From Longitalea arenae (GTDB lineage Bacteria; Bacteroidota; Bacteroidia; Chitinophagales; Chitinophagaceae): a DNA stretch of 64,000 bases. Below are positions 1 to 14,966 of the stretch, one piece after another (the stretch's first letter is position 1; the number at the start of each line of letters is the position of its first letter). The translations under genes and the position numbers were made by a program. The notes under the pieces were generated by a model. It saw only the letters and a list, made by a program, of their open reading frames with translations. It ran no database searches and was not told the origin of the DNA. The stretch lies in the NCBI RefSeq assembly GCF_016924755.1, contig NZ_JAFFJX010000019.1, positions 1-64,000 on the forward strand, in the 5' to 3' direction.

Positions 1-895
1 AATGGATGCTTTTTGAGAAGAATATGGGCACTCATTTAAGTATTGATGAGACTGCATTGTCCAATGATGAACTCTACACCGTGGTCACCAATAAAGAAGC
101 CAAAGGTCGTAAAGGCGCCATTGTTGCCATGATCAAAAGCACCCAGGCAGACAAGGTGATCGAAGTATTACAACGCATAAACAAGCGATTGAGACAACGG
201 GTGCAAGAGGTGACTTTGGATATGGCAGCTGGTATGCATCTGATTGTAAAACGTTGTTTCCCTTATACACACCGGGTCGTAGACCGTTTCCATGTACAAC
301 AACTGGCTACAGAGGCTGTTCAGGAAATCCGTATCAAACACCGCTGGCAGGCTATAGATGAAGAAAATGAGCAAATTGCCCGGGCCAAAAAACAAGGCAT
401 TCCTTACATACCTCACTTATTGCCCAATGGCGATTCTCCCAAACAATTACTGGCACGCAGCCGCTACCTGTTATTCAAGCATAAAGATTGTTGGACGCCT
501 TCTCAGAAGCAGCGGGCAACCCTGATGTTTGATCGTTATCCAGCAATAAAGAATGCCTATGATATGTATATGAAGCTCGCCGACATCTTCCGTTACTGCA
601 CCTGTAAAGAGCAGGCGTTTAAACGATTGGCCTTATGGTTCAATGAGGTTGAAGATGCAGGAATTGAATCTTTTAGAACCGTGTACCGCTCCATTGAAAC
701 TCACTACGAAAGTATATTGAATTACTTTAATAACAGAAGTACCAACGCTTCTGCCGAATCCTTCAATGCAAAAATTAAAGCCTTTAGATCTTCTGCACGG
801 GGAGTTCGGGACATTAATTTCTTCCTATTCAGACTCCAGAAAATCTATGCTTAACTACCTCATCCCCCAAAAATTTGACTTGATCCCCGTTTGAT
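1..895 (+). mobile_element. Right part of an ISAon1/ISL3-type insertion sequence
   Basis: The transposase gene runs in from the left window edge and ends at 854. About 10-35 bases after the stop lies a C-rich then AT-rich stretch (around 864-888, containing CCCCCAAAAATTTGACTT) that looks like the terminal inverted repeat of this kind of element. I cannot see the left end, so the repeat cannot be paired and the exact border is a guess. The element stops roughly 100 bases from the 3' end of a tRNA-Ser gene. Confidence 0.6.
6..854 (+). CDS. ISAon1/ISL3-family transposase, catalytic part (5' end outside window)
   Basis: This is the catalytic portion of a DDE transposase of the ISL3 superfamily (ISAon1 group, common in Bacteroidota). 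The first acidic residue sits in the SIDETALS motif near the start, the second in the VVDRFHVQQL motif around residue 93, and the last is the glutamate in the NASAESFNAKIKAFR motif near the C-terminus. The reading frame is still open at the left edge, so the ATG at 6 is probably internal. ISAon1 elements usually carry a separate upstream frame for the N-terminal DNA-binding part, which would lie outside the window. No internal stop or frameshift is seen, so the enzyme may be intact. Confidence 0.8.
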   Translation: MLFEKNMGTHLSIDETALSNDELYTVVTNKEAKGRKGAIVAMIKSTQADKVIEVLQRINKRLRQRVQEVTLDMAAGMHLIVKRCFPYTHRVVDRFHVQQLATEAVQEIRIKHRWQAIDEENEQIARAKKQGIPYIPHLLPNGDSPKQLLARSRYLLFKHKDCWTPSQKQRATLMFDRYPAIKNAYDMYMKLADIFRYCTCKEQAFKRLALWFNEVEDAGIESFRTVYRSIETHYESILNYFNNRSTNASAESFNAKIKAFRSSARGVRDINFFLFRLQKIYA

Positions 896-987
896 TCGAT
901 TTGAATCGATTTGTGGTGAAAAATTGAAAAGGGTCCACAAAACCAGCGTTTTATGAACCCTTTAATACGATTTGATATGGTATCCAG

Positions 988-1072
988 CGGAGAGAGAGGG
1001 ATTCGAACCCCCGGACCTGTTACAGTCAACGGTTTTCAAGACCGCCGCATTCGACCGCTCTGCCATCTCTCC
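988..1072 (-). tRNA. tRNA-Ser (anticodon UGA)
   Basis: The reverse complement folds as a class II tRNA with a long variable arm. The acceptor stem GGAGAGA (5') pairs with TCTCTCC (3') with discriminator G. The anticodon loop CTTGAAA lies between GCGGT and ACCGT, giving anticodon TGA for serine. The T-arm has the expected GGTTCGAATCC. CCA is not encoded at the 3' end, as is usual in this phylum. A strong promoter lies directly upstream. Confidence 0.95.
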
Positions 1073-1076
1073 GGGG

Positions 1077-1107
1077 CAAAAATAGGGGTAGCAATTAAAC
1101 TGACAAA
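1077..1107 (-). promoter_or_regulatory. Bacteroidota-type promoter of tRNA-Ser
   Basis: Read on the minus strand, a -33 box TTTG (1104-1107) is followed after exactly 19 bases by a -7 box TATTTTTG (1077-1084), matching the TAnnTTTG consensus of the Bacteroidota housekeeping sigma factor. The tRNA begins five bases downstream. This is the best promoter in the window. Confidence 0.8.
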
Positions 1108-1363
1108 AAAATCAGAAAAATTTAGTTCGAATATTTTTTCTACATAACCATTTTTAATTCAATATTTTGAAGTAATATCCGCGCGGGAGATCGTGCGTTC
1201 TTTCTGGTGTTTTTTCATACCTTTGATCCTACCCATCACTCCCCCTCCTGCCTGCACTTCTCCCATTCTTTCTACCTAAAAACAGCTCCTCCTTCGTTTA
1301 GCTTTTATCCAGAAACTATAGTCCAGAACCTGCCGGCTGCCAACAGCCGCCAAAAACTTTTAT

Positions 1364-1936
1364 ATGCCTGATAATCATAACTTGTATATCGTCTCCGGTG
1401 GCCCCGGCTCCGGTAAAACATCCCTTTTGGCTGCACTTGCCAAACAAGGCATCGCCTGCATGCCGGAAGCCGGCCGCTCCATCATCCAGGATCAACTGGC
1501 CATCGGCGGTTCTGCCCTGCCCTGGAGCAATCCTGCCGCCTTTGCGGACCTCATGTTATGCTGGGATCTGCGTTCTTACCGTGAAGCGCAGCTACTGCAG
1601 CATCCCGTTCTCTTCGACCGCGGCATTCCCGACGTCATGGGCTTCCTGCTCCTGAATAAATTACCGGTACCGCCCCATATCGAAAATGCGGCTCATACAT
1701 TCCGTTATAACCACCGGGTCTTCCTGGCGCCGCCTTGGCCCGACATCTATACCCAGGACGCGGAAAGAAAACAATCGCCTGAGGAAGCGATGGCTACTTT
1801 CAATACCATGCAGGCATTGTATACTAAACTTAATTATGAGACCATTCTGCTTCCCCTGGCGCCCGTTGCCGACCGGGTTCAATTTCTGCTGCATAGTATT
1901 CGAACAGGTGACGACAAATGCGCAAAAACAACCTGA
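1364..1936 (+). CDS. AAA_28-type P-loop ATPase/kinase-like protein
   Basis: A 190-residue cytoplasmic nucleotide-binding protein. The Walker A motif GGPGSGKTS lies at residues 12-20, and FDRGIPD around residue 85 is the Walker B-like acidic motif. The PPWPDIYTQDAERKQSPEEA stretch is typical of the AAA_28 (PF13521) family, whose members resemble small-molecule kinases. The substrate is unknown. The ATG at 1364 puts the P-loop at the usual distance from the N-terminus. It is followed after 12 bases by the convergent stop of the alpha/beta hydrolase gene. Confidence 0.8.
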   Translation: MPDNHNLYIVSGGPGSGKTSLLAALAKQGIACMPEAGRSIIQDQLAIGGSALPWSNPAAFADLMLCWDLRSYREAQLLQHPVLFDRGIPDVMGFLLLNKLPVPPHIENAAHTFRYNHRVFLAPPWPDIYTQDAERKQSPEEAMATFNTMQALYTKLNYETILLPLAPVADRVQFLLHSIRTGDDKCAKTT

Positions 1937-1948
1937 TCAACCCGCCGT

Positions 1949-3379
1949 TCATTCAATTGTTACACCTTTCGAGGCAACCATTTTCTTAAAGGGGTCGCGC
2001 ATAAACTGCTGCAGGTAATCTACTCCATTTACATAAAACGAAGGCAGATGCCCCTGATCATGCACGATCAGGATCTGGCTATTGGGCATGTAGCGTTTAA
2101 TTAACCGGTTATAGAAGGGCCTGCACCAGGGATCTACATCACCTGCTGCAATAATTGCGGGAATGTTTGAATAAACAGGTGTTTTCGCGATCGCAGGTTC
2201 GGGCTTCACCTTCCAGCAATCACAGATCGCATGATCTACATTGTTAAAGGCAGCCCCTGCAAGCCAGGGCAGGATCGCTTCCTGGCGTTTTACCAGCTCC
2301 TTACGCGCATAAGCGATCTGCTCCGTACAATAAATGGAATACCGCATCCCATGCGACAATGCCTGATCGCCTTTAAACACGCCATCCAGGATCTCTTTTA
2401 CATACACTTCATGCCGGCCATTGATCATTTCATTCATTACAAAAGGTACCGTGCTTAGCTGCCACCGGTTCAACCGGTTCCGAATAGCATCCAATAGCTC
2501 TTTCTTGGTATAATTGATTGTCAGGTCCTGTAAACTGTCCTTTTCTCTGTACCTGATCGTAAAGGTTTTGCCGGTAATTCCGCTAAAGTAGCGGAGAAAC
2601 CGCTCGCGCAGCTTACCGTATACATTTTTATCTGTTGAATCGGCTTCGCAATTTTCAAAGACCTTGTCAAGGGCTTCATTGGTATTGAACAATGCCTCTT
2701 CTTCATAATTGGTATAACCCGGTAAAGGAGAATTCAGAATAAGCGTTTTCACAGTCTCCGGATGGTTTCGGGCAACGGTAAGCATCAGCCCGCCACTGTA
2801 CGACATGCCGAATAAATGTAGTGCGGGTAGTTGTAAAGCCCGGCGCAGGTCATTGATATCTGCTGCACTCTCGATCGTATTATAGGCGGAAAGATCGATC
2901 CCCTTTGCTGCCAGCCTTTCCCTGCATTGCCGAACAGCCGCTAATTGCACACTGTCTTTCCGCAGGTTTTGTTTATAGGCCCTGATATTGGCAGCGATGA
3001 CTTCCGGACAGTCGAGGCAGGGAATTGATTTCTTTGAACCTCGCTGATCAAAGATGATGAAACCGCCAAATTGAAAGAAGTCTGATCTTGCCGTGATCTC
3101 CGTAAAATTAGCAATGGTGCTATACCCGGGTCCGCCCGTAGTATAGAGTATTATATTTGAGTCGGAAACATTCTTTCGCAAATAAACAAATGGCAGCTTT
3201 ACGGTTCTGCCCGCCGGTTGCTGCCGGTTCTCAGGAACTACTAAATAACCGCATTGGGAGATCAGTGCTGTATCCACTTTTATAAAACACTGGCAGGGTT
3301 CTATTTTCGGCAGATATCCCTGGGCCATTAACATCTCGAAGCGCAGGAGTAATAAAAAAAAAATTAAGCTATACTTCAT
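1949..3379 (-). CDS. Secreted alpha/beta hydrolase, S33 tripeptidyl aminopeptidase-like
   Basis: A 476-residue exported hydrolase with a signal peptide ending near Ala19-Gln20. The oxyanion-hole motif GGPG is at residues 82-85. The nucleophile elbow reads GMSYSGG at 191-197, so Ser193 is the likely nucleophile, but the second glycine of GxSxG is replaced by Ser195. The acid lies in AAGDVDPW and the histidine in HDQGHLP near the C-terminus, which matches the TAP-like C-terminal part of S33 exopeptidases. It probably removes amino acids or short peptides from peptide N-termini in the periplasm. It is transcribed away from the caspase-subtilisin gene, from which it is separated by 310 bases. Confidence 0.8.
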   Translation of the reverse strand: MKYSLIFFLLLLRFEMLMAQGYLPKIEPCQCFIKVDTALISQCGYLVVPENRQQPAGRTVKLPFVYLRKNVSDSNIILYTTGGPGYSTIANFTEITARSDFFQFGGFIIFDQRGSKKSIPCLDCPEVIAANIRAYKQNLRKDSVQLAAVRQCRERLAAKGIDLSAYNTIESAADINDLRRALQLPALHLFGMSYSGGLMLTVARNHPETVKTLILNSPLPGYTNYEEEALFNTNEALDKVFENCEADSTDKNVYGKLRERFLRYFSGITGKTFTIRYREKDSLQDLTINYTKKELLDAIRNRLNRWQLSTVPFVMNEMINGRHEVYVKEILDGVFKGDQALSHGMRYSIYCTEQIAYARKELVKRQEAILPWLAGAAFNNVDHAICDCWKVKPEPAIAKTPVYSNIPAIIAAGDVDPWCRPFYNRLIKRYMPNSQILIVHDQGHLPSFYVNGVDYLQQFMRDPFKKMVASKGVTIE

Positions 3380-3689
3380 ATGAGCAATTTGAGCAACTGA
3401 ATGCTACAATATCGCTTAATTCAGCATCTACGCCATACCGCTTATCATTGTTCCTGAAAACCCTGTACATTTTCGTGGATATTCTTTTTATCGTGAACCG
3501 TCGATTAAACATTCTCAATCCCGAACCAGCCCGTGGTATCCTGTTAGGTACAAACAACGAAAAATACGTGAAAAACACCTGTTTTTATCCCCTGAAATCT
3601 TTGTAATCTCGATAGTTAAAATCCCGCTGTTCGCAAGCAAGCCTACCCTGATTTTCAATCATTGATTTACCCATTTAATACAATACCAT
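3380..3689. other. Intergenic region between divergent genes
   Basis: This 310-base stretch holds no convincing gene; a short minus-strand reading frame across it has no family features. It must carry the divergent promoters of the hydrolase and of the caspase-subtilisin gene. A -7-like AATCTTTG occurs at about 3596-3603 on the plus strand, one base away from the TAnnTTTG consensus, without a clear -33 box. Confidence 0.4.
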
Positions 3690-6329
3690 ATGCCTAACGC
3701 CTGCTCCCTTCATATTGGCCTCAACAAAGTAGATCCCAATCACTATTCAGGCTGGAACGGCCAACTCTACTGCTGCGAAAATGATGCGCTTTTTTATAGT
3801 GAAATGGCAGAAAAAGCCGGCATCACCGATCGTAAACTATTATTATCCTCCGGTAGTCCCAATTCAGAAATGCCCAGCTCGGCCAACCTCAAAAAATACC
3901 TTGTACACTACCAGGAAACTTTAAAAAGCGGCGATTTCCTGCTGATCACCTATTCCGGGCATGGCGGACAGATCAGGGATCTGAACCTGGACGAACCGGA
4001 TGAGGTAGATGAAACCTGGTGCCTCTATGACCGGCAGTTCGTTGATGATGAATTATGGGAACATTTCAGCCAATTTGCAAAAGGGGTTCGCATCCTGGTA
4101 ATTGCGGATAGCTGCCATAGCGAATCTGCCGTGAAGGTCATCGACTCACAAAAAGACGCCGAAGTGGAAGGGTTAATGGCTGAGATCTATAATAAAATGA
4201 AACTGGTTCAGCGTTTCGCGCCTAAAGAGATCACTTTTCCCACTGCACAAAAACATAAAGAAGAATATTATGCAGCCACCCACCGGCCGCGGGTCGTAAA
4301 AGAAGATATACCTGCCAGTATCCTCTTAATGGCTGCCTGCCGCGACGAAGAAAAAGCCTGCGAATGGGATGGCTTTGGTTTGTTCACGAGCACCCTGAGA
4401 AAGGTACTTATGACGAATAAAGAGATCGCCAGTTATGAAGACTGGCATGAAAAGATCCTGCAACTCATCCCGAAAATACAACACCCCACCATCAAAGCCT
4501 ACGGTTCGGGCGCCAACCTCTTCCTCAAAGAAAGGATATTACAGACCGGCAAAACGAATAGCCAGTTCAGCTTTTTTGACCCCGCGCACCATACGGCTGA
4601 GCCCATCGCCGCAGAAAATATCATCGTTGACTTCGGCAATAGCCAGGCCACCGTTAAAGCAGGTTACGAACCTGCCTCGAACATCAAACGCGATGAAGCG
4701 GCGGCAGCTCCCATCTATCTGACAAAAGCCCGCGATGGATCATCGCCTGCCTGGGATAGTGCCTATAAAGAATATTTTGAACTGAAAGCAGCGCACCCGG
4801 CAGTCTTTGTAGAGCCGGATATAAAAAGCAAATACCTCAAAGAAACACCGCTGTCAAAATCTTTTGGGGAAAATAGTTATATGCCGGGCTGGCCCAAACC
4901 GCCTAATAACCTGGGCATCGATGAATTTATCTGGCACCTCGATGATCAGCACTCGCAACTTCGCCAGGCAGCAGAGCGGGTAAAGAAGGAACTCAAATTA
5001 TCACACGATCTCGACAATGTACCTGACAACATGATCCGGATAGCCCATATTGATACAGGTTATATTCCCTCCCACCCCGCTACGCCAAAATTCATTTTGG
5101 CCGATGCAGGAACGAGCTTTGTGAACGGAGAAGCGGGTAATAAAGGAACGGATCTTCTGCGCAACCGGATAAAACCATTGGAACAGGATGGACATGGTTC
5201 AGCCACACTGGCCATACTGGCAGGTAATTATATCCGGAAAACAGATTCCTATGCCGGGTATGAAGGATTTTTCGGCGGCATCCCTTTTGCCAAAATAGTT
5301 CCCATTCGCATATGCGATACAGTGTACAATGCCTTCAATGCAAATGATGTGGCACGAGGCATTGAATACGCCGTGGAAATGGGCTGTGAAGTGATCACCA
5401 TGTCCATGGCTGGTTACCCTACCCGGCGCGTAGCCCAGGCAGTGAACAAAGCCTATGAAGCAGGGGTAGTGATGGTTACCGCGGCTGGTAATAACTGGAC
5501 AAGAGGCATCAGCAAGCTAACGCCCAAAGCCGTCATGTATCCTGCGCGGTTCGACCGGGTCATTGCTGCCTGCGGTGTATGTTACAATGAAAAGCCCTAC
5601 GATTTTGCCGCCAATGAAGAAGAAATGAAACTGCGTTCTGAAGGCGGTGATACCATGCAGGGCAACTGGGGACCGGAACGGGCGATGCAAACAGCGCTGG
5701 CCGCTTATACGCCCAACCTGGCATGGGCTAATAACAATCCTGATCATAAATACCGTTTCTCGCGAACCGGCGGCGGCACTTCATCAGCAACCCCGCAAAT
5801 TGCAGCGGCAGCAGCCTTGTGGATCTTATATAACCGTCAGCAACTGATCGATAAAAAATACAGGGGCACCTGGAAGCAGGCTGAAGCGGTACGACAGGCA
5901 TTGTTCCGCAGCGGCGGCATCGAGTATCCGGGTTATAAAAAGTATTACGGCAATGGTTCCCTGAAAGCCAGTGCGGCCCTCGACATCTCCGACGAGATCT
6001 TTGCGCTTGCGCTGGAACCCGCCGAAGAAGCATCGGTAAGTTTCCTGGGCATCGGCAAATTTGTTTCGCAATGGTTCCGCACAATGCCTACCAAAGATGG
6101 TATGGCTTCGGAAGTGCAGGCTGATGACGAACGACTGCAGGAAATGATGTCGGTAGAGATCATGCAGGTGATGTATAAAGACCCGGCCTTGTTTGATTAT
6201 CTCGACACGCTCGACCTCGATGGCGCCGACCAGGATTATTTCGGCAGGCCGGCGGCCATGGCTAAATTCAAAAATGCGATCAAAGTTTCGCCCTATGCTT
6301 CCGCTACCCTCAAAGCATTACTTCAATAA
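3690..6329 (+). CDS. Metacaspase (C14) - subtilisin (S8) fusion protease
   Basis: An 879-residue protein with two complete protease domains and no signal peptide, so probably cytoplasmic. Residues 1 to about 285 form a caspase-fold domain: TYSGHGGQ supplies His91 and IADSCHS supplies Cys142. A linker of about 150 residues follows. From about 445 a subtilase domain begins: IAHIDTG gives Asp455, DGHGSATLAI gives His502, AAGNN around 598-602 supplies the oxyanion Asn, and GTSSATP gives the nucleophile Ser698. All catalytic residues of both enzymes are present. The tail after about 770 is not recognised. The downstream CHAT-domain gene starts 10 bases after this stop, so the two are almost certainly co-transcribed. 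The substrate is unknown; one domain activating the other by cleavage is an inference. Confidence 0.88.
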   Translation: MPNACSLHIGLNKVDPNHYSGWNGQLYCCENDALFYSEMAEKAGITDRKLLLSSGSPNSEMPSSANLKKYLVHYQETLKSGDFLLITYSGHGGQIRDLNLDEPDEVDETWCLYDRQFVDDELWEHFSQFAKGVRILVIADSCHSESAVKVIDSQKDAEVEGLMAEIYNKMKLVQRFAPKEITFPTAQKHKEEYYAATHRPRVVKEDIPASILLMAACRDEEKACEWDGFGLFTSTLRKVLMTNKEIASYEDWHEKILQLIPKIQHPTIKAYGSGANLFLKERILQTGKTNSQFSFFDPAHHTAEPIAAENIIVDFGNSQATVKAGYEPASNIKRDEAAAAPIYLTKARDGSSPAWDSAYKEYFELKAAHPAVFVEPDIKSKYLKETPLSKSFGENSYMPGWPKPPNNLGIDEFIWHLDDQHSQLRQAAERVKKELKLSHDLDNVPDNMIRIAHIDTGYIPSHPATPKFILADAGTSFVNGEAGNKGTDLLRNRIKPLEQDGHGSATLAILAGNYIRKTDSYAGYEGFFGGIPFAKIVPIRICDTVYNAFNANDVARGIEYAVEMGCEVITMSMAGYPTRRVAQAVNKAYEAGVVMVTAAGNNWTRGISKLTPKAVMYPARFDRVIAACGVCYNEKPYDFAANEEEMKLRSEGGDTMQGNWGPERAMQTALAAYTPNLAWANNNPDHKYRFSRTGGGTSSATPQIAAAAALWILYNRQQLIDKKYRGTWKQAEAVRQALFRSGGIEYPGYKKYYGNGSLKASAALDISDEIFALALEPAEEASVSFLGIGKFVSQWFRTMPTKDGMASEVQADDERLQEMMSVEIMQVMYKDPALFDYLDTLDLDGADQDYFGRPAAMAKFKNAIKVSPYASATLKALLQ

Positions 6330-6339
6330 ATTAACCACC

Positions 6340-7350
6340 ATGGCAAAGCCAACTTTTTATACCGCTTTTTGCAATAGCATGGAGAATACAATTCCAAATT
6401 TGTCTGAAGAAGCCATGAAGATCTCTGATCTTTTGCAGGAGCTGGTATTCAGCGACAAACTTTATTACATCAAGGATGAGATCTTCGATATACAGCGCCT
6501 TGTTCTGAATTTTCAAAAGTATGGCCGGCGCATCGACATCTTTTATTTTTCCGGACATGGGAAGAATGGATGCCTGCAGCTTACAGACAATCACAAGCTG
6601 GAGTCAAAGCAAATGGCTGACCTGGTAAATATTAATCTCAAAAACGCCAAACTGGTCTTCTTCAATGCCTGCGAAACCTTTACGCTCGCCCGCGAGATCA
6701 TTGCAGGAAGGCAAAACACAGCAGCGCCTATTGTCCTGATCTCCTGCAAAAAAGAGATAAACTGTTTTGTGGCCGAACGGTTTGCTACTTTGTTATTCAG
6801 CCAGATCGGTCAACCCGGCACCTACCGGGATGCTTATGACAATGCAAAAGTCTTAGTGCAGGCTATCAACCAAGAACTAATTTTTAAAGAGTTCGACACC
6901 CTTGAATCTATAAAGGAAGCAGATGATCAAAATTTCGACATTGCCTATATAGAAATAGAAGCGCCGGCCGACAAAAAGAAAAAATCGTCCATCATCGGCC
7001 AGCATCCGCTTACCCGCGATGCGTTAACCTCTAACTACGTGCATGAAGTGGTAGAATATATAGCCAGGAATGCCGATAAAATCGAGCACGATAAATTGCA
7101 ATTATTGAAGACGGCCCTGCTTACGGCGGAACAAATTGCCAATGGCGGGAAAAAGGATAAAGAGGCCGCCCAATTGTTTGACCAGGCGGCTGAAGCCCTG
7201 CCCGGATTTAGTTCAGGCAGTGTATTCGATGCGCTGATCAATACCGAAAAGAATTTAAACGACAATGCAGTAAAGAGCCTGATCAAAAGCAGGGAATCGG
7301 GCATTACCATCGGCGAGATGTTACAGCAGGTGAATAACATCACCGCCTGA
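6340..7350 (+). CDS. CHAT-domain (caspase-fold) protein
   Basis: A 336-residue cytoplasmic protein. FYFSGHGKNG places a catalytic His at residue 73 and VFFNACETF a Cys at residue 111, the signature of CHAT proteases of clan CD. The spacing between the two is short, as in CHAT proteins, because the region is compact. The C-terminal half (from about 215) is rich in predicted helix and contains a charged KKKKSS linker around 220; I do not recognise it. I chose the ATG at 6340, ten bases after the protease stop, because the frame upstream of it only encodes residues overlapping the previous gene. Its tight linkage to the metacaspase-subtilisin fusion suggests that the two proteins act together, perhaps as sensor and executioner. 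Confidence 0.8.
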   Translation: MAKPTFYTAFCNSMENTIPNLSEEAMKISDLLQELVFSDKLYYIKDEIFDIQRLVLNFQKYGRRIDIFYFSGHGKNGCLQLTDNHKLESKQMADLVNINLKNAKLVFFNACETFTLAREIIAGRQNTAAPIVLISCKKEINCFVAERFATLLFSQIGQPGTYRDAYDNAKVLVQAINQELIFKEFDTLESIKEADDQNFDIAYIEIEAPADKKKKSSIIGQHPLTRDALTSNYVHEVVEYIARNADKIEHDKLQLLKTALLTAEQIANGGKKDKEAAQLFDQAAEALPGFSSGSVFDALINTEKNLNDNAVKSLIKSRESGITIGEMLQQVNNITA

Positions 7351-7356
7351 AAAAGA

Positions 7357-8307
7357 TCACTGCTCCTTCAGCCAGGCTACTTTTTGAACAGAACTATGTG
7401 CTGCAGCGATAATATCGCCGTATAATTCCGGACGCCGCGCATTTTTATACCGGTATGCACCGGCCTGTTTCAATTTCTCCGGGGTGAGCGTAGCGATACC
7501 AAGATCGTTGCCCAAAGCCCGGCATTCAGCGATCACATCGCCAAAAGGATCCAGGATCATGGAACAGCCATTTTTCAATTGATCGTCATCCATCCCGATC
7601 GGATTTGAAAAAACGACATATACGCCATTGTCGTAAGCACGCGCGGGCAACCATTTCATCAACCAGCTCCGGCCTTTCAGTCCATCGAATTCAGCGCGCA
7701 GCGAAGTAGGATCTTCTTCCCTTTTAAACCACAGCGCCGGGTCAACAAAACCTGCGCCCGGCCGGGGCGAAGGCGTGCACATGGTAACATGGGGCATGAA
7801 TATGATATCGGCGCCCAATAAAGTGGTAGCCCTTACATTTTCAATAATATTATTATCGTAGCAGATCAGGATGCCGCACTTCCAGCCGAAGAGATCGAAC
7901 ACCACATAGGAATCACCAGGCGTAAGGTGGGGATTAATGAAAGGATGCAATTTCCGGTATTTAGCCACCAATCCGGATGCATCGACACATACATATGCCT
8001 TGTACAATTTGCCGTCAGCTGTTTTTTCAAACAGGCCGGCGAGGATCACCATATCGAGTTCGGCGGCTATCTGAGTAAGCGCCTGGATACTTTCTCCTTC
8101 AGGGATTAATTCCGCAACTGCCGTCAATTCCGCTTTGTTCAAATGCCGGGCAAAGGTATATCCCGTTATGGAACATTCATGAAAGGCGATCACCTTGGCG
8201 CCCTGTGATCTTGCCTGGGCGGCCAATTCACGGATTATACGAAGGTTATACGCTTTATCATTACTGTGGTGTTCGAACTGGGCGGTAGCGATCTTTATAG
8301 GTTGCAT
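7357..8307 (-). CDS. Nitrilase-superfamily carbon-nitrogen hydrolase
   Basis: A 316-residue cytoplasmic enzyme with the full Glu-Lys-Cys triad of the nitrilase superfamily: Glu44 in FHECSITGY, Lys119 in KYRKLHPF and Cys149 in GILICYDN. It should hydrolyse an amide or nitrile; the conserved motifs do not fix the substrate, though sequences of this type are often annotated as N-carbamoylputrescine amidase-like or general amidases. The stop is only six bases from the convergent CHAT gene stop, so the two transcripts must run into each other. No signal peptide is present. Confidence 0.85.
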   Translation of the reverse strand: MQPIKIATAQFEHHSNDKAYNLRIIRELAAQARSQGAKVIAFHECSITGYTFARHLNKAELTAVAELIPEGESIQALTQIAAELDMVILAGLFEKTADGKLYKAYVCVDASGLVAKYRKLHPFINPHLTPGDSYVVFDLFGWKCGILICYDNNIIENVRATTLLGADIIFMPHVTMCTPSPRPGAGFVDPALWFKREEDPTSLRAEFDGLKGRSWLMKWLPARAYDNGVYVVFSNPIGMDDDQLKNGCSMILDPFGDVIAECRALGNDLGIATLTPEKLKQAGAYRYKNARRPELYGDIIAAAHSSVQKVAWLKEQ

Positions 8308-8537
8308 ATCAGTTTATATTTAACGCACTAACTTGTCTTACGTCAAAGCAATATAATTAATTCTGTATTAACGGTTGTTGCAGCACTGCTGATTTGATAT
8401 AATGGAAACATAAAATCAGATACCAGCTGTGACATTGTATTTATTCACTATGCATTCACCATTCAATGATGGGGTCCTTTCATCTGATCCACTCTATTCT
8501 TCGCAGTCTGCTCCTGTTCCTGCTTCCCTGTTCATTA

Positions 8538-8545
8538 TATCTTTG
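8538..8545 (+). promoter_or_regulatory. Putative -7 promoter box before the GNAT gene
   Basis: TATCTTTG matches TAnnTTTG exactly and lies 18 bases before the ATG. A clear TTTG -33 box is missing at the expected distance (TGTT is found instead). Confidence 0.45.
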
Positions 8546-8563
8546 CATTAGAAAACATAAACG

Positions 8564-9043
8564 ATGACCAGGAGCCAGGAACTTATTCTGAAGAAAGCAG
8601 CTACCATCCGGGATTTTGAAAATGGAAAACAATTATTCCTGCAATATGTTCAGTCGCTCGATTTTGAACTCAACTTCCAGGACCTTGACCGGGAACTGGC
8701 AGAGATCGCCACAGAATACAATGACCCTAAGGGTGTGCTGTTGCTGGTGTATGATGGCGACAAAGCCATTGCCTGTGCCGGGGTGCGCAAAATTGATGCA
8801 ACCGTCGCTGAACTGAAAAGAATGTTTGTGGATCCGCGTTACCGGGGACGCCAGCTCGGTCAGCAATTATTACAGCAGGCAGTAAGCGCTGCCAAAGCAT
8901 TAGGCTATCGTTCCATTCGCCTCGATACGGTTCCTTCCATGCAGGCAGCTATTAAATTATATCGATCAGCCGGTTTTTATGAAATTGAAGCCTACCGGTT
9001 CAACCCCGTCCCCGGCGCTATTTTTATGGAGAAGACCTTGTAG
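8564..9043 (+). CDS. GNAT-family N-acetyltransferase
   Basis: A 159-residue GNAT enzyme that transfers an acetyl group from acetyl-CoA to an amine substrate that cannot be named from sequence. The acetyl-CoA-binding motif A is seen as FVDPRYRGRQLGQQLL around residues 91-106, followed by the usual helix and the SIRLDT strand. The C-terminal GFYEIEAYRFNPVPGAIFMEK segment is typical of small stand-alone GNATs in this phylum. A -7 promoter box lies 18 bases upstream of the ATG. Confidence 0.85.
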   Translation: MTRSQELILKKAATIRDFENGKQLFLQYVQSLDFELNFQDLDRELAEIATEYNDPKGVLLLVYDGDKAIACAGVRKIDATVAELKRMFVDPRYRGRQLGQQLLQQAVSAAKALGYRSIRLDTVPSMQAAIKLYRSAGFYEIEAYRFNPVPGAIFMEKTL

Positions 9044-9117
9044 GCCCTTACCGGTTACAGCTAAAAGAAATATAGCAGTACGGGCACGCGTGGCACTATA
9101 TTTATGGTACATTAGAT

Positions 9118-9333
9118 ATGGACAATCAAAATAAACCAGGCGGCGATGAAAACCGGGAAGTAACCCTTACAATTAATGTGGACGTGCCCGGCTATGTTCC
9201 TGAGTGGTTGATCGTTCGCCACCAGATAACGGAATCAACTTTTACGGCGGCTGTAAAAAAGGCAGATTTTGCCCGGCTGGAAGCCGACCAAATGGTGGTC
9301 TCCTTTTCCATCAACGAGGAACTGGACAGATAA
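9118..9333 (+). CDS. Small hypothetical protein (71 aa)
   Basis: A 71-residue acidic protein without a signal peptide or membrane segment. I do not recognise a family. It has an early hydrophilic stretch followed by alternating hydrophobic residues (LTINVDVPGYVP), consistent with a small beta-rich fold. Support for being real comes from its codon use, from its position on the same strand 74 bases after the GNAT gene, and from a strong hairpin 17 bases after its stop. Confidence 0.5.
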   Translation: MDNQNKPGGDENREVTLTINVDVPGYVPEWLIVRHQITESTFTAAVKKADFARLEADQMVVSFSINEELDR

Positions 9334-9350
9334 AGATCATTAAATACTAC

Positions 9351-9387
9351 AATGACCGGCTGCACGGAAAACAGGCAGCCGGTCATT
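9351..9387 (+). terminator. 13-bp perfect hairpin after the 71-aa gene
   Basis: AATGACCGGCTGC (9351-9363) pairs perfectly with its reverse complement at 9375-9387 around an 11-base loop. There is no long T-run after it, so it is either a weak terminator or an RNA-stabilising 3' stem. Confidence 0.6.
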
Positions 9388-9502
9388 TGCATTCTACAAA
9401 AGGCTGAAAGATAAGGGCCAGGAAAAAATTTAAAAAAAACTGCAGGTACTTGTCCAATCCCGTTCGTCCCGGTCATTATTAAAGTATAAACAAACATTAA
9501 TA

Positions 9503-9997
9503 ATGATAAAATCGAACGAAATGAAACAGCCGATCAATGTAATGGAGAAAGGACAACGGGCATTGAAAGCATTGAACAGCCTTGGTGCTTACCTGGGCAA
9601 ATCACCGGTAGAACAATCCTTATTACACCTGCTTTATTTCCGCGTATCACAGATCAATGGTTGCGCATTCTGTCTCGATATGCACTCGAAAGACCTGCTG
9701 GCCGAAGGAGAGAATCCCCAACGGCTTTTTGTACTCGATGCATGGCGGGAAGCGCCTTTTTACAGTGAACGGGAACGCGCCGCCCTGGCCTGGGCAGAAG
9801 CATTGACCCGTTTAAATGGCAGCCATATAGACGAAGCCATTTATGAGCAAACGCTTCAACAATTCTCGGAAGAAGAATTGATCGACCTCACCTTTGCGGT
9901 GATCGCCATCAACAGTTACAACCGGGTAAACATTGCCTTCCCCAACCCGGCCGCTGTAGGCATGTATACACCGGGCATGTTTGCGAATCACCAATGA
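9503..9997 (+). CDS. Carboxymuconolactone decarboxylase / AhpD-like protein
   Basis: A 164-residue AhpD-like protein. The redox motif CAFC at residues 54-57 followed by His61 (NGCAFCLDMHSKD) is diagnostic of the alkylhydroperoxidase AhpD core, so it probably reduces peroxides or acts as a thiol-disulfide enzyme. The ATG at 9503 and a second one six codons later (MKQPIN) are both possible starts. The last codons and the TGA lie inside the 7-bp tandem repeat that follows, so the C-terminus may be recent or variable. Genes of this family are often found close to DGPF/YCII proteins and ECF42 sigma factors, as here. Confidence 0.85.
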   Translation: MIKSNEMKQPINVMEKGQRALKALNSLGAYLGKSPVEQSLLHLLYFRVSQINGCAFCLDMHSKDLLAEGENPQRLFVLDAWREAPFYSERERAALAWAEALTRLNGSHIDEAIYEQTLQQFSEEELIDLTFAVIAINSYNRVNIAFPNPAAVGMYTPGMFANHQ

Positions 9998-10051
9998 CCA
10001 TTCACCATTGACCATTCACCATTCACCATTGACCATTCACCATTCACCATT
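9990..10051 (+). repeat. Heptamer tandem repeat (unit ACCATTC/ACCATTG)
   Basis: About nine copies of a 7-base unit alternate between ACCATTC and ACCATTG. The array begins inside the last codons of the AhpD-like gene and contains its TGA. The same unit in reverse complement occurs at 41031-41068. Confidence 0.9.
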
Positions 10052-10097
10052 TTACACTAACTTGTCGCGCTTACAGCGTGCTATAAAAACAAATGTT

Positions 10098-10436
10098 ATG
10101 AAAGAATTCATGTTCATCTTTCGTCAGCCCAGTTACGATTACAGCAATGTTTCGCCCAAAGAAATGCAGGCGCTTACCAAAAAATGGCAGGACTGGGTAG
10201 GCGGTATTGCCGCACAGGGAAAATTAGGCGCTACCGGCTTACGGCTTGCAACCGAAGGGAAAGTGTTGAAACCAGGCGGTGTAATAACCGATGGTCCCTT
10301 CGTAGAGATCAGGGAACGCCTGGGCAGCTTCATGACCGTTAAGGCAGAGAATATGGAAGAAGCACTCACGCTGGCGCATGGTTGTCCGGCCCTCGATGCC
10401 GATGGCAGTGTTGAAGTGCGCCCAATATATCAATAA
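10098..10436 (+). CDS. YCII-related (DGPF-type) protein
   Basis: A 112-residue YCII-related domain protein with the motif TDGPFVEIRE, the feature that gives DGPF proteins their name. Their biochemical role is unknown, but they are regular genomic partners of ECF42-group sigma factors, and such a sigma factor follows 61 bases downstream. I chose the ATG at 10098 (MKEFMFIFRQ); the frame is open upstream, but that part is encoded by the heptamer repeat and is not protein-like. A CCGTG hairpin lies between this gene and the sigma factor. Confidence 0.85.
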   Translation: MKEFMFIFRQPSYDYSNVSPKEMQALTKKWQDWVGGIAAQGKLGATGLRLATEGKVLKPGGVITDGPFVEIRERLGSFMTVKAENMEEALTLAHGCPALDADGSVEVRPIYQ

Positions 10437-10449
10437 GACATTAGGCCGT

Positions 10450-10481
10450 AACCGTGCCCGGTGTTGAACCGTGGCACGGTT
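10450..10481 (+). repeat. CCGTG hairpin element, copy 1
   Basis: AACCGTGCCCGGT (10450-10462) is followed after four bases by AACCGTGGCACGGTT (10467-10481), which is its near-perfect reverse complement. The second arm is itself almost palindromic. It starts 14 bases after the stop of the DGPF gene. The 15-base arm recurs identically at 62654-62668. Confidence 0.75.
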
Positions 10482-10497
10482 GAATTATTAATCTTCT

Positions 10498-11745
10498 ATG
10501 GAAAAAGAACAGGAATCATTAAAGCATTTGTTCCAGCAGGAGTTTGCCAAAATGGTGGCGGTAATCAGTAAACAGTTTGGTCTGGAACATATCGAGCTGG
10601 CAGAAGATATCGTGAGTGAAACCTTCCTGGTGGCCTCGGAAACCTGGGGCATGAATGGCCTGCCTCCCAATCCCGCTGCCTGGTTATATGCCGTTGCCAA
10701 ACAGAAAACTTTGTATCATTTCAGGCGGCATAAGATCTACGAACAAAAAGTAGTTCCTGAAATAAAAGCGCAGCAACCCATAAATGCAGAACCAGATCCG
10801 GTGAATTTTTCCCAACAGAATATTAAAGACAGTCAGCTGCAAATGCTCTTCGCCATTTGCAATCCCGCCATTGCCAGTGAAGCGCAGATCGGCCTGGCCT
10901 TACGCATCCTTTGCGGTTTTGGCATCGATGAGATCGCCGAAGCATTTTTAACCAATAAAGAAACCATCAATAAACGGCTTTTCAGGGCCAAGGAAAAACT
11001 GCGCCATGAAAAAGTACAGTTAATTCCGATCGACAATACACTCAGCGACCGGGAACTGGACAACCGGCTCGACAATGTACTGCACATCATTTACCTGCTT
11101 TTCAGCGAAGGCTATTATTCCCAAACCGAAAACACTATTCTGCGCAAAGACCTCTGCCTGGAAGCCATGCGCCTGGGCGGTATGCTGATAGAATATGAAC
11201 GCACCAACCGGCCCAGGACAAATGCCCTGCTGGCCCTCATGAGTTTTCATGCTTCACGCTTTAACGCCCGCGAAAGCAACGACGATACGCTGATCTTATA
11301 CGAACAGCAAGACACCGACCTGTGGGATACCGCCCTGATCAACCAGGGCATTCAGTTCCTCAATAGCTCCGCCCAGGGCGATGAAATAAGCTCTTACCAC
11401 CTGGAAGCTGGCATCGCTTACTGGCATTGTATAAAGGAAGACAGTGCCGAAAAATGGCAAAACATCCTGCACCTGTACGATCAGCTGCTGCTGATCAATT
11501 ACTCACCTGTAGTAGCCCTGAACCGCATCTTCGCATTGTATAAAGCCCGGGGCAAAGAACTGGCCCTGCAGGAAGCCCTGCAACTGCCCGCCAATAAGAA
11601 TCATTTTTATTATCTGCTCCTGGGTGAATTGTACCGCGACCTCGACAACAAGCAGGCTATATCGAACTATCAGGAGGCGTATGCCCTGGCCAAAACACAA
11701 AAGGAGAAACAGGGTATCCGGGCGAAGATCGATAGCCTTTTATAA
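10498..11745 (+). CDS. ECF42-type sigma factor with C-terminal DUF6596/TPR-like extension
   Basis: A 415-residue sigma factor. Residues up to about 185 carry ECF regions 2 (LAEDIVSETFLVASETW, PAAWLYAVAKQ) and 4 (GFGIDEIAEAFLTNKETINKRL). The remaining 230 residues form the long helical extension (LDNVLHIIYLLFSEGYY onward, DUF6596) that defines group ECF42, in which it replaces an anti-sigma factor and is needed for activity. The DGPF gene upstream is the expected partner and likely target. The ATG is 16 bases after a CCGTG hairpin. The signal sensed is unknown. Confidence 0.88.
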   Translation: MEKEQESLKHLFQQEFAKMVAVISKQFGLEHIELAEDIVSETFLVASETWGMNGLPPNPAAWLYAVAKQKTLYHFRRHKIYEQKVVPEIKAQQPINAEPDPVNFSQQNIKDSQLQMLFAICNPAIASEAQIGLALRILCGFGIDEIAEAFLTNKETINKRLFRAKEKLRHEKVQLIPIDNTLSDRELDNRLDNVLHIIYLLFSEGYYSQTENTILRKDLCLEAMRLGGMLIEYERTNRPRTNALLALMSFHASRFNARESNDDTLILYEQQDTDLWDTALINQGIQFLNSSAQGDEISSYHLEAGIAYWHCIKEDSAEKWQNILHLYDQLLLINYSPVVALNRIFALYKARGKELALQEALQLPANKNHFYYLLLGELYRDLDNKQAISNYQEAYALAKTQKEKQGIRAKIDSLL

Positions 11746-11940
11746 AAATACCTGCAGTAATGCGATTGCACAACGGTTGCAGGTTATTAATTTCGCGGGG
11801 CTGTTTCCAACTATAAATTGTAAATGGCCGGCCAGTGAATGGTTTCATGTAGCAGTTAAAAAAATTATAGCCGGAGCTGCATGAATCCTGCTGCCAGCAG
11901 CGTTATAGGATTGCTATACCTGCCAAACCCAAATAACCTT

Positions 11941-12855
11941 ATGAAATTACAAACACTGGTTTTGTTGCCTGTTATAGTAGCTGTTCTTTCCGGCGCCATC
12001 TGGTCGCCCGGAAACAGCCCTGGCAATATAAAGCCGGCCTCCCCCATAAAAGATCCAAACCGAAGAACGCCTTTATTTTCTGCAGAAGACGTTGAACGCA
12101 TCAAACAATTCTTTATCGCCAATGCTTCCTTAAAAGAGCAACCCAAAGATTCGAACTGGCGGCCCGGCTTTCGCCATAAATGTATCAATACCGTGCGGGC
12201 GGGGTTAGACTATCTCCTCTTTGGTGAATCGAGCATACCTGATAGTTTATACAGCCGCAGGGCCGTATTAAATGGTAATTTTCATAACAATGATATTACT
12301 GCGCTGGCCAAAAGGCTTCGGGATAGTTACTATATCCGCAGTTATGATACCGTACGCTTTTTGGCCATCCGCAAAGGTGAATGGGTTCCTATTACCAAGG
12401 CCGACCCTGTTTCGCGTGGACTGCAGCCTGTAGCCATGGAAAAAAGTTTATGGAATACCCTGCTTGCACGGGTAGGCAAAGAACGCGGCTTCAGCGTTTT
12501 CCTGGTCTCGGTATGCGATGGCTATCATGCAGCGCTTTTGACGCTCGATCACCGCAATACCGCTGAATTAAGGGCTTATTGGGCCGATCAAACGCACAAA
12601 CATCCCTGGCGCTTTTTTGTAAACAATAAGCTGGAGGAAGTCCCCGGCAAATATGGTTGGGAGGTCATGCAGGCGAATGGACCGGTGAAGATCGTTAAAG
12701 GAATGGCAAGGGGGCTCGACAATTACATGCTGATGGCCAACCAGCAATTCTGGTGCGATTGTGGCCGGGTGAACCAAAAACCAGGTGATTGCTGTGCCGG
12801 CAATTGCTTTCCGTATATTCAGATCTGGAGGTTACAAAAGTTATTGAGTTCTTAA
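11941..12855 (+). CDS. Hypothetical exported protein (304 aa)
   Basis: I do not recognise a family. The chosen ATG at 11941 gives a basic residue followed by a hydrophobic stretch (LQTLVLLPVIVAVLSGA), a probable signal peptide or N-terminal anchor; the frame is open for 20 codons further upstream, but that part is not signal-like. The C-terminal region is cysteine-rich (WCDCGRVN, PGDCCAGNC), suggesting disulfides or metal binding outside the cytoplasm. The last residues LLSS and the TAA are encoded by the octamer repeat that follows, so the C-terminus has probably been redefined by repeat invasion. Confidence 0.65.
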   Translation: MKLQTLVLLPVIVAVLSGAIWSPGNSPGNIKPASPIKDPNRRTPLFSAEDVERIKQFFIANASLKEQPKDSNWRPGFRHKCINTVRAGLDYLLFGESSIPDSLYSRRAVLNGNFHNNDITALAKRLRDSYYIRSYDTVRFLAIRKGEWVPITKADPVSRGLQPVAMEKSLWNTLLARVGKERGFSVFLVSVCDGYHAALLTLDHRNTAELRAYWADQTHKHPWRFFVNNKLEEVPGKYGWEVMQANGPVKIVKGMARGLDNYMLMANQQFWCDCGRVNQKPGDCCAGNCFPYIQIWRLQKLLSS

Positions 12856-12930
12856 GTTATTCAGTTCCTAAATTATTGAGTTCTTAAGTTCCTTAATTAT
12901 TGAGTTCATGAGTTTGTAAGTTATTAACTG
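12847..12930 (+). repeat. Octamer tandem repeat (unit AGTTNNNN)
   Basis: About ten degenerate 8-base units begin with AGTT or AATT. The array includes the stop codon of the preceding gene. The same family occurs at 49850-49881. Confidence 0.8.
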
Positions 12931-12950
12931 AACAACTGAATAATTAAATT

Positions 12951-13295
12951 TCAAGAACCTAATAATTCAGCCAGGATCTGCGCATGGTTCTGCTCTTCAT
13001 CTTTGGCCGCATAGAGCAAGGTCAGTTTTTTATGTTCTTTATACAATGATCTTAAGTCTTGCAGGGCGGGATTTTGCTTCAATTCAGCCAGGTATTTCTT
13101 TTTAAATTCAGCAAAGCTGCCTTCTCCGTTATGAAACCATTTCCGCAGTTCGGTAGACGGCGCCACCTCTTTTAACCAGGTATCTACATGGGCTTCCTCT
13201 TTGCTGATACCCCGTGGCCATAAACGATCCACAAGGACGCGGTAACCATCTTTAGCTCCTACCGGTTCGTATATTCTTTTTATAGTGATGGACAT
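12951..13295 (-). CDS. DUF488-family protein
   Basis: A 114-residue cytoplasmic DUF488 protein, recognised by KRIYEPVGAKDGYRVLVDRLWPRG at the start and by WLKEVAPSTELRKWF in the middle. The biochemical function of this family is not established. The ATG at 13295 gives the normal family length. It lies downstream of the AraC gene on the same strand, with a 38-48 bp octamer repeat between the two. Confidence 0.88.
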   Translation of the reverse strand: MSITIKRIYEPVGAKDGYRVLVDRLWPRGISKEEAHVDTWLKEVAPSTELRKWFHNGEGSFAEFKKKYLAELKQNPALQDLRSLYKEHKKLTLLYAAKDEEQNHAQILAELLGS

Positions 13296-13332
13296 GCTGG
13301 ACAGTTAAAATTTAACCAGTTGACGTGAATTT

Positions 13333-13377
13333 CATTATCACATTATCAAATTATCACATTATCACATTATCACATTG
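13333..13377 (+). repeat. Octamer tandem repeat (unit CACATTAT)
   Basis: Five to six copies of an 8-base unit lie directly against the stop codon (13379-13381) of the minus-strand AraC gene. Confidence 0.85.
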
Positions 13378-13378
13378 C

Positions 13379-14383
13379 TTATTTCTTCCTCACCTTTCCC
13401 GGCGGCATACCAAACTTTTTACGGAAGGCGCTGTTGAAATGTTGTACGGAAGAATAACCCAGCCTGTCAGCCACCTCTTTAATAGGAATATCACCCACGA
13501 TCAGTTCCCTGGCCTGGTTGAGTTTATAATCGGTAAGATACCCAAACACGGTATTATTGAACAAGGCTTTAAATCCCTGCTTCAGTTTGAATTCATTGAT
13601 CCCGGCAATTTTAGCCAGCTCGCTTAAGGAAGGAGGCTGCGCAGCATGCTGCATCAGGTATTCCCGGGCAAAATAGATACTATCGGTATCATGCCCCGGT
13701 TTTATGATACAGGAAGCGGCCGGTGCCGACCGGATGGCATCTTCATACATCTGCGATTGCAGGGTGAGCAGCTCAATACATTTCGATTGCAGGTACAGCA
13801 ACTTTAACCTTCCGGTAAAGTTGGCATTCATAATATCATTTATACATTGGTGCATGGCAAAGGAAATAGGCATGTTCTCCCGGCTGAGATCAATTTCCTC
13901 ACCACTGGCGATCATTTCGGCAAAATGCATCAGCGAGGGGCAGCTTTCTTTTGCCAGTTCAAAGAAAAAACGTTTGGTAAAATGCACCTCGAAGAATTTA
14001 TACTTATTGAGAACGCCGCCGTATTGGCCGATCCCGCTGAACAAAGGGGTATAATGAAGATTGTGTTGATTGGCTTTAAAGTGATGCTCTTTTCCGGATG
14101 CCAGGTTCATCATCTGGCCATTGCCCTGCAGGGTAAAATGCATTTCCACCATATCTATTTCGCCGGTTATTTCATACCGCAACCGCTGGGTCTTGTTCAG
14201 CAGCATATCTCCATACACGATGTATATACCAGAGAAAGCCAGCTGTACCATCTCCGCATTGCCGATAGGAAAGGTATACACCTCACGTCTTTCTGTGACC
14301 AGCGGCTGTTCTACCATTTCATTCGAAAACACATCGCCTACATAATATTCTCGCCCCAATTCGTCAAATACATGTACACCCAT
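13379..14383 (-). CDS. AraC-family transcriptional regulator
   Basis: A 334-residue regulator. The last 95 or so residues form the double helix-turn-helix AraC domain (SLSELAKIAGINEFKLKQGFKALF, then KEVADRLGYSSVQHFNSAFRKKFGMPPGKVRK). The N-terminal 230 residues are the ligand-sensing part, of the kind seen in PchR-like regulators of Bacteroidota, where siderophores are frequent ligands; no ligand can be read from this sequence. It is divergent from the 157-aa gene at 14493, which is a likely target. The stop codon touches an octamer repeat. Confidence 0.88.
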   Translation of the reverse strand: MGVHVFDELGREYYVGDVFSNEMVEQPLVTERREVYTFPIGNAEMVQLAFSGIYIVYGDMLLNKTQRLRYEITGEIDMVEMHFTLQGNGQMMNLASGKEHHFKANQHNLHYTPLFSGIGQYGGVLNKYKFFEVHFTKRFFFELAKESCPSLMHFAEMIASGEEIDLSRENMPISFAMHQCINDIMNANFTGRLKLLYLQSKCIELLTLQSQMYEDAIRSAPAASCIIKPGHDTDSIYFAREYLMQHAAQPPSLSELAKIAGINEFKLKQGFKALFNNTVFGYLTDYKLNQARELIVGDIPIKEVADRLGYSSVQHFNSAFRKKFGMPPGKVRKK

Positions 14384-14444
14384 AAAATCCGTTTGATGTA
14401 AATATTTATCCGTATCGTATAAAAAAGCGCAGGAATCCCCTTTC

Positions 14445-14452
14445 TACTTTTG
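14445..14452 (+). promoter_or_regulatory. Putative -7 promoter box before the 157-aa gene
   Basis: TACTTTTG fits TAnnTTTG exactly and lies 41 bases upstream of the ATG at 14493. No clear -33 box is visible, which would fit dependence on an activator such as the divergent AraC protein. Confidence 0.4.
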
Positions 14453-14492
14453 TAAAGGTAAATTATCTGTTCCGTAAACAAAATAGAATAGC

Positions 14493-14966
14493 ATGTTTGA
14501 TATTTCCAGGCCAATCAATAATGCCGAGCCGGAAGCAGCCATGAACAGCGATGTGCCGGTTACAGAAGAAAATGAGCTACTACATTACATAACGTCAAAA
14601 CAGTTGTATAACAAACAGGCAACACACCATTTCTTTGTAGGCGATGAAAGCAGTGTGGAACTTTTCAATGCATTAAAAACAATTGCCCTGCAGAACGATC
14701 ATGAATACTTCGGTATTTTGGAATTACATCCCGAGTATGAAGCTGTGCTGTCGATGTTAAAACTGCTGGTAGACAGTGTTCCGGAAATGCCGCAGGAACC
14801 TGCATTGAATGCGATCCAATGGATGGAAGATATGCATCCCAATTGCTGGCTGGCCTGGCAAAATGCCACTTTCTATTTATCAGGTGGCACAACATTGATC
14901 TCGCGTTTCCAGCAATACCTGGCAAAGAAAAACATTGCCGGCTGGCAGGTTCGTATTATAAAATAA
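14493..14966 (+). CDS. Hypothetical protein (157 aa), divergent from AraC regulator
   Basis: A cytoplasmic, acidic protein without a membrane segment. I do not recognise it with confidence. The C-terminal stretch (CWLAWQNATFYLSGGTTLISRFQQYLAKKNIAGWQVRII) resembles in outline the nucleotide-binding end of flavin reductases or siderophore-interacting proteins, where a short Gly pair precedes a helix, but it is too short to be such an enzyme. Its divergent position suggests control by the AraC protein. Confidence 0.6.
   Translation: MFDISRPINNAEPEAAMNSDVPVTEENELLHYITSKQLYNKQATHHFFVGDESSVELFNALKTIALQNDHEYFGILELHPEYEAVLSMLKLLVDSVPEMPQEPALNAIQWMEDMHPNCWLAWQNATFYLSGGTTLISRFQQYLAKKNIAGWQVRIIK

Follow-up and report, generated by a model that had tools for sequence, protein, structure and literature searches.

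A C14-subtilase fusion protease followed by a CHAT-like protein in Longitalea arenae, and its possible relation to MoxR-vWA conflict systems

MoxR-vWA ternary conflict systems were predicted by Kaur et al. 2020, in a study whose relevant passages set out a VMAP and an iSTAND class (PMC7159879). According to the same passages, caspase domains in VMAP proteins always occur with an alpha/beta-hydrolase neighbour (Kaur et al., PMC7159879). A second system to be compared is the SAVED-CHAT protease cascade of type III-B CRISPR, which we take from citing passages in PMC11417357 and PMC11229360. Here we describe two adjacent genes in a 64,000-nucleotide stretch of Longitalea arenae, referred to as the window (source genome G000, 7.28 Mb). 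The first (P0001) encodes a C14 peptidase fused to an S8 subtilase, and the second (P0002) encodes a CHAT-like putative protease. To our knowledge, the predicted MoxR-vWA conflict systems are numerous and largely untested, and a compact two-gene unit with several proteases would provide a tractable way into them.

The fusion protease and its CHAT-like neighbour

Our analysis confirmed that a single polypeptide contains both a complete metacaspase-type C14 peptidase and a complete subtilase. All of the catalytic residues named in the original prediction, His91 and Cys142 in the former and Asp455, His502 and Ser698 in the latter, are present as described, and both domains matched their Pfam families above the cut-off. 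Peptidase_C14 matched residues 17-268 (E-value 7.3e-13, 49.2 bits, cut-off 21.4), with the His/Cys dyad in place, and Peptidase_S8 matched residues 449-756 (5.1e-23, 82.2 bits, cut-off 21.8), with the Asp/His/Ser triad in place. P0002 begins at ATG 6340, with ten bases separating it from the P0001 stop codon, which is the spacing that had been claimed for it. The features of the locus are as follows.

3690..6329, + strand: P0001, C14-S8 fusion protease gene, 879 amino acids (open reading frame, Pfam, full-length homologues)
3690..4544, + strand: metacaspase-type C14 domain, residues 1-285, H91 and C142, with D140 two residues before the Cys
4545..4733, + strand: linker of variable sequence (residues 286-348; three close pairs share 37-67% identity)
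4734..5009, + strand: N-terminal segment of the subtilase module (residues 349-440), carrying WD...(V)EP(D)...W motifs also seen in unfused subtilase relatives
5034..5957, + strand: subtilase catalytic domain, residues 449-756, D455, H502 and S698 plus N601 (Pfam; residues invariant in 10 of 10)
6000..6326, + strand: helical tail at the C terminus of the subtilase module (residues 771-879; homologues, low-confidence model)
6340..7350, + strand: P0002, CHAT-like protease gene, 336 amino acids, CHAT part residues 1-206 (H73, C111)
6988..7347, + strand: helical C-terminal domain of P0002, residues 217-336 (model; ratio of nonsynonymous to synonymous substitution rates, dN/dS, 0.10 and 0.20 in two pairs, a third giving no value)
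3559..3689, + strand: upstream region conserved with Longitalea luteola, likely promoter or leader (blastn match 3559-7355, 79.7%)
7356..7363, no strand: indel junction relative to L. luteola; the alignment stops at 7355 and picks up again at 7364, L. luteola having about 11.8 kb more here

The closest solved structure to the C14 domain by sequence was 3bij (GSU0716), which matched residues 1-283 with an E-value of 1.9e-45. Cleavage after Arg or Lys, often Ca2+-dependent, is characteristic of C14 metacaspases, and Asp140, which we take to be the S1 acid, does not vary among the 10 aligned fusions. In the subtilase module, the longest match to unfused subtilases opens at query residue 349, approximately 100 residues ahead of Asp455. 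The stretch from residue 349 to 440 is perhaps half of a propeptide, and would be the second half. Residues 791-879 of the tail align to nine other fusions and one giant protein, that of G192 only, at 34-81%. The structure model of P0001 (mean predicted local distance difference test score, pLDDT, 48.9) displayed helices in the tail, with faint signs of strands and one helix at 310-376, and was too poor to show domain packing. Judged by eye, P0001 has no apparent signal peptide, and promoter and terminator scans gave signals no higher than in shuffled sequence.

The second gene had been described as encoding a caspase-fold CHAT protein. The candidate catalytic residues of P0002, His73 and Cys111, lie in SGHG and NACET motifs and are kept in 4 of 4 close orthologues, and a fifth orthologue (G1062) retains both (SGHS, NACET). 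An AlphaFold2 model of modest quality (mean pLDDT 67.1) had the SAVED-CHAT filament 8tl0 as its top five Foldseek matches, with probability 1.00 and a best E-value of 2.6e-3, none being at or below 1e-3. The Pfam matches to C14 (E 0.002) and CHAT (E 0.023) both fell under their cut-offs, with PF12770 (CHAT) scoring 14.6 bits against a cut-off of 24. These results leave the CHAT-like assignment supported but not strong. A longer frame from TTG 6193 overlaps the fusion gene, and orthologues align from ATG 6340. Profile comparison detected no homology between the CHAT part of P0002 and the C14 domain of P0001 (probability 0.9), or between the C-terminal domain of P0002 and the tail of the fusion (hhalign probability 0.1).

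Conservation of the fusion and linkage of the CHAT gene to C14

An assembly artefact can be dismissed as the origin of the fusion, since other genomes supply nine full-length fused homologues (43-86% identity). The nearest named relatives with the locus are L. luteola, whose fusion protein is 86% identical, and two Niastella strains. We assembled a set of 15 distinct C14-subtilase loci, including the window, nine of which came from a scan of genome contigs and five (G192, G329, G1062, G1065 and G876) from whole-genome searches. Counts of fusion loci are lower bounds, as the contig scan, based on a pair of short peptide patterns, did not pick up the G1062, G1065 and G876 types. The five catalytic residues are all preserved in 14 of the 15 loci (ten by alignment, four by motif), and in the fifteenth, G876, the contig ends near the gene start and the C14 His is unread. 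For every domain, dN/dS in close pairs was 0.06-0.20, with dS saturated in several and two comparisons without a value. Both proteins keep their catalytic residues under purifying selection.

Within the genus, 4 of 10 genomes carry the fusion. At the family level it was found in 9 of 294 genomes, counting rows that span both domains; 14 family genomes matched in all, and in the other five either C14 alone or S8 alone was matched. A search at class level matched 7 of 395 genomes at 1e-40, three of them fusions including that of the window, and at phylum level 2 of 395 genomes matched, the window's being the only fusion. A split form is found in G1040, where C14 (283 amino acids) and S8 (573 amino acids) are separate genes ten bases apart, and in G058 a subtilase without C14 is followed by a gene for a peptidase of C25, another caspase-fold family. 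Plasmid records matching P0001 numbered 23, none covering 80% of the protein, and P0002 had no match on plasmid records.

On plasmids of Phyllobacterium (L024) and Methylorubrum (L026), an unfused subtilase gene is followed by a metallo-beta-lactamase (MBL)-fold gene, with Pfam matches above cut-off in L026 and below it in L024. L025 perhaps has the same arrangement, and on pCMU01 the subtilase-MBL pair lies near SIR2 genes. This arrangement is possibly a separate protease-MBL conflict pair. A Rhizobium plasmid (L029) carries a GDSL-lipase-like C14 fusion gene (13044-14627) and a C25 peptidase gene (6912-8843), separated by about 4 kb and with SIR2 and AAA genes nearby.

In a profile search with P0002, five of the 294 family genomes proved to have a close CHAT orthologue, and in all five the gene lies directly behind a C14 gene, with gaps of 10, 13, 13, 13 and 70 bases. 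Four of these genomes have the CHAT gene behind a C14-S8 fusion. In G1062 it follows a stand-alone C14 gene, 50% identical to the window C14 domain and 70 bases away, with no subtilase between. A second locus in G1062 has a C14-S8 fusion 39 bases from a C14-alpha/beta-hydrolase gene. The link between the two genes is supported, but as one of CHAT with C14 and not with the subtilase: a subtilase is missing from one of the orthologous pairs, and at 11 of the 15 fusion loci a close CHAT orthologue is not found alongside. Four of the five CHAT-C14 pairs are in one genus and therefore represent few independent events. More distant CHAT relatives (22-32% identity) were found in eight further genomes, in seven of them inside longer open reading frames of 378-1494 amino acids, and in G104 such a relative is divergent from a C14-hydrolase gene.

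Chromosomal sites and additional genes in relatives

The cluster is found at two chromosomal sites in the genus. At site A (G000, G007) it is flanked by an AAA_28 gene and a CN_hydrolase gene, and in G002 and G006 this slot measures 1.3 and 0.6 kb and contains one other open reading frame and no cluster. At site B (G002, G006) the cluster lies beside a 242-amino-acid gene, and in G002 the two sites share a contig and are about 237 kb apart; in G000, G003, G004, G007 and G009 site B lacks the cluster. Since the CHAT-fusion pair, carried by 4 of 10 genus genomes, is present at two separate sites in one genus, it behaves as one unit. Site A is undefined in G001 and G003, where the AAA_28 match (39%) is too weak, and the G008 genome is 61% complete. 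The slot also varies in G004, G005 and G009, in genes that give no reason to be called defence genes. We call site A a plastic slot, not a defence island. Just upstream of the slot, the window contains an ISL3-type transposase gene (6-854, + strand) and a tRNA-Ser gene (987-1072, - strand).

Several relatives carry further genes beside the fusion. In L. luteola, genes 3-5 behind the CHAT gene encode a 1101-amino-acid C14-alpha/beta-hydrolase, a 580-amino-acid protein with a CHAT-like stretch and a MoxR-type AAA ATPase, and genes 6-7 encode a 400-amino-acid vWA-like protein and a 1499-amino-acid protein with leucine-rich repeats and two pYEATS stretches. The last of these lies at L057 2560-7059, behind the MoxR/vWA-like pair. 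Niastella populi has, of these extra genes, the C14-hydrolase gene only, and Niastella OAS944 has none beside the pair, with C14-hydrolase relatives elsewhere in its genome. G876 displays the order C14-S8 fusion, 607-amino-acid C14 protein, MoxR ATPase and contig end, and its MoxR ATPase is 40% identical to that of L. luteola (E 7e-61). The 1905-1908-amino-acid proteins of G192 and G329 align end to end at 36%, with four segments at 36-48% each, in the order S8, C14, S8, alpha/beta hydrolase (Pfam on G192, comparison for G329). In Parapedobacter soli, a gene 13 bases past the fusion has a GHSAG motif and weak hydrolase matches (DUF900 0.011, DUF7379 0.055).

A protein family of about 500 amino acids was additionally seen in the vicinity of C14 or C14-S8 genes, either adjacent or no more than about 4 kb away (L035 9187-10713, L043 8496-9974, L045 15116-16639, L054 149-1780); a Pfam scan gave nothing in L035 and L043 and a weak helix-turn-helix match in L054. 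Elsewhere in the window, 8-nucleotide tandem repeats at 12838-12933 and 13333-13376 are mostly intergenic, and giant proteins of 4089 (27142-39411, - strand) and 1416 amino acids (22831-27081, - strand) have IgGFc_binding, PKD and CHU_C type IX secretion signal domains.

A candidate conflict module and its relation to known systems

We favour, with moderate confidence, the interpretation that the pair is the protease core of a conflict module, accessory and intracellular, which serves self-killing or defence and is related to the MoxR-vWA ternary systems. The relation is drawn because alpha/beta hydrolases occur linked to related C14-S8 proteins or as part of the same chain, with MoxR in the same string of genes in two genomes. 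The form in the window is probably such a module reduced to its protease core, without hydrolase and MoxR genes alongside. In this module, the CHAT protein would sense or relay a trigger and act on the C14 protease, which, with an acid two residues before its Cys and a predicted Arg/Lys specificity, may cut the linker or the propeptide-like stretch of its own chain. Self-cleavage would then free the subtilase, and the freed subtilase, together with a lipase-like hydrolase in some relatives, could kill or arrest the cell. To the observed parts, residues, linkage and two sites we thereby add a trigger, an order of steps, substrates and cell death that we infer. That CHAT activates C14 and C14 activates the subtilase is plausible by analogy, since the SAVED-CHAT cascade of type III-B CRISPR, in the passages that cite it, gives a precedent for this direction; that cascade was reportedly described by Steens 2024. 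We put forward only tentatively the full scheme of a three-tier cascade encoded by two genes and using two catalytic classes, in which CHAT acts on the metacaspase and a self-cut unlocks a subtilisin executioner that relatives exchange for, or combine with, a lipase-like hydrolase. If this is true, caspase-type enzymes activate a protease of another catalytic class in bacteria, providing a bacterial parallel to apoptotic and pyroptotic cascades. Relatives of the unit take split (G1040), CHAT-C14 only (G1062) and giant four-domain forms (G192, G329).

A number of observations weigh against a conflict module. The scanned window neighbours are ordinary (CN_hydrolase, GNAT, TAP-like hydrolase), and ten neighbours searched against PADLOC gave two generic matches, to the TAP-like protein and an OmpA/MotB-type protein. 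Fusion genes look solitary in at least four loci (L040, L041, L042, L044), most fusion loci lack an adjacent CHAT gene, as described above, and phage records contained no copies of either gene, nor did viral contigs searched with two short patterns per query. Among the 43 listed open reading frames of the window, none matched the 580-amino-acid, MoxR, vWA-like or 1499-amino-acid proteins of L. luteola at E 1e-3, and the sole match of L. luteola gene 3 was the C14 domain of P0001 itself. In the whole G000 genome, gene 3 had no match at 1e-20 and the 580-amino-acid protein none at 1e-5, MoxR and vWA having been sought among the window open reading frames only. C14-alpha/beta-hydrolase genes occur in 11 of 148 relatives, only three of which carry the fusion, and two of the five fusion genomes among those 148 relatives have no C14-hydrolase gene; because such genes are common without the fusion, the fusion-hydrolase link is partly a background association. 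The vWA-like assignment in L. luteola is based on weak matches (SAV_2336 4.8e-9, below cut-off; VWA_CoxE 0.08). We make no claim of an iSTAND identity for the third component, no homology having been found between the C-terminal halves of the L. luteola 580-amino-acid and G876 607-amino-acid proteins. We rejected the TAP-like alpha/beta hydrolase of the window (1949-3379), the only such hydrolase nearby, as a hydrolase partner, as it belongs to a different family and has close homologues in the same slot without the cluster in G004 and G005.

The ordinary neighbours, the solitary-looking fusion genes and the phage records without a match would also fit a stand-alone stress or housekeeping protease, in which the fusion performs regulated intracellular turnover, CHAT only modulates it, and there is neither killing nor defence. 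We regard this explanation as possible but rather doubtful: the fusion is very patchy in both family and genus, the cluster uses two chromosomal sites in one genus, and its relatives are repeatedly linked to C14-hydrolase and MoxR genes. The sharp 11.8-kb indel relative to L. luteola, right behind the CHAT stop codon, together with the presence of gene 3 in two of four clade members, could instead point to a degraded remnant, a pair left behind and no longer working after about 12 kb of a larger conflict operon was lost. We consider this unlikely. Both genes are intact and constrained, although the comparison of the window with L. luteola is compatible with recent loss; Niastella OAS944 likewise has the pair with gene 3 not beside it, the CHAT-C14 pair stands alone in G1062, and a gain by L. 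luteola is as possible as a loss by the window.

Two further explanations were prompted by similarity to other proteins. The S8 domain has sub-threshold matches to PatA/PatG (29.4 bits, cut-off 421) and QhpE (29.1, cut-off 165) subtilases, as though C14 and S8 together processed a peptide or toxin precursor. These scores are far under their cut-offs and reflect a general resemblance among subtilases, mycosin reaching a higher score (92.3 bits, below its cut-off of 278.75), and no modification gene is present among the scanned neighbours; we reject cyanobactin or quinohaemoprotein maturation as such and consider any maturation protease very improbable. A CRISPR- or gasdermin-linked caspase system, to which the original prediction had drawn its analogy and to which the fold match of P0002 to type III-B SAVED-CHAT could point, seems more improbable still. 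Positions 1-16000 of the window contain no CRISPR-like array, the seven direct-repeat families there being short tandem repeats or two-copy matches. Pfam and PADLOC scans of P0001, P0002 and the tested neighbours gave no match to Cas, SAVED or gasdermin, although divergent gasdermins could be missed; P0001 and P0002 had no TPR match, and P0001 had a weak generic caspase match in PADLOC (E 0.00045). The original prediction had likewise seen no gasdermin or CRISPR component. The C14-hydrolase and MoxR genes of the relatives point towards the predicted MoxR-vWA conflict systems and away from systems of the gasdermin or CRISPR kind.

In comparison with known systems, the locus shares a putative CHAT fold with the SAVED-CHAT system, in which, according to the citing passages, a CHAT protease stands upstream of further proteolysis, as we propose here, but in the regions scanned no SAVED domain or CRISPR genes were found and the partner is a C14-subtilase fusion. 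Its C14 domain is of the same type as GSU0716 (3bij) and the prokaryotic metacaspases-orthocaspases, whereas the matched chain has 285 amino acids and contains C14 only. The unfused S8 subtilases of rhizobial and Burkholderiales plasmids (34-38% identity) have the same subtilase module, including the WD...EPD N-terminal part, but differ in having no C14, a long C-terminal extension and an MBL-fold partner. With the MoxR-vWA systems the similarities are the pairing of a caspase-type peptidase with an alpha/beta hydrolase, stated for the VMAP class in passages of PMC7159879, a MoxR ATPase beside a CHAT- or caspase-bearing protein in L. luteola and G876, and Bacteroidetes among the iSTAND-class hosts named in those passages (PMC7159879). 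A caspase with a neighbouring alpha/beta hydrolase is found in L. luteola, N. populi, G1062, G192 and G329 but not in the window, which has neither the hydrolase nor the ternary core of such an operon; L. luteola has a MoxR gene, with the vWA and third components weakly supported. Because the window lacks the ternary arrangement, and neither a vWA nor an iSTAND identity is secure in L. luteola, we file the locus as related to the MoxR-vWA systems and not as a member of them. The C14-S8 fusion is unmentioned in the passages of PMC7159879, where subtilisin appears once, in a NucA-trypsin system, and the words subtilase and subtilisin are absent from the main text of PMC3501461 and PMC4933709, figures aside. 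The searched literature, covered as text with figures, supplements and subscription papers outside, yielded no description of the fusion. Taken together, the C14-S8 fusion is a new architecture within a known theme.

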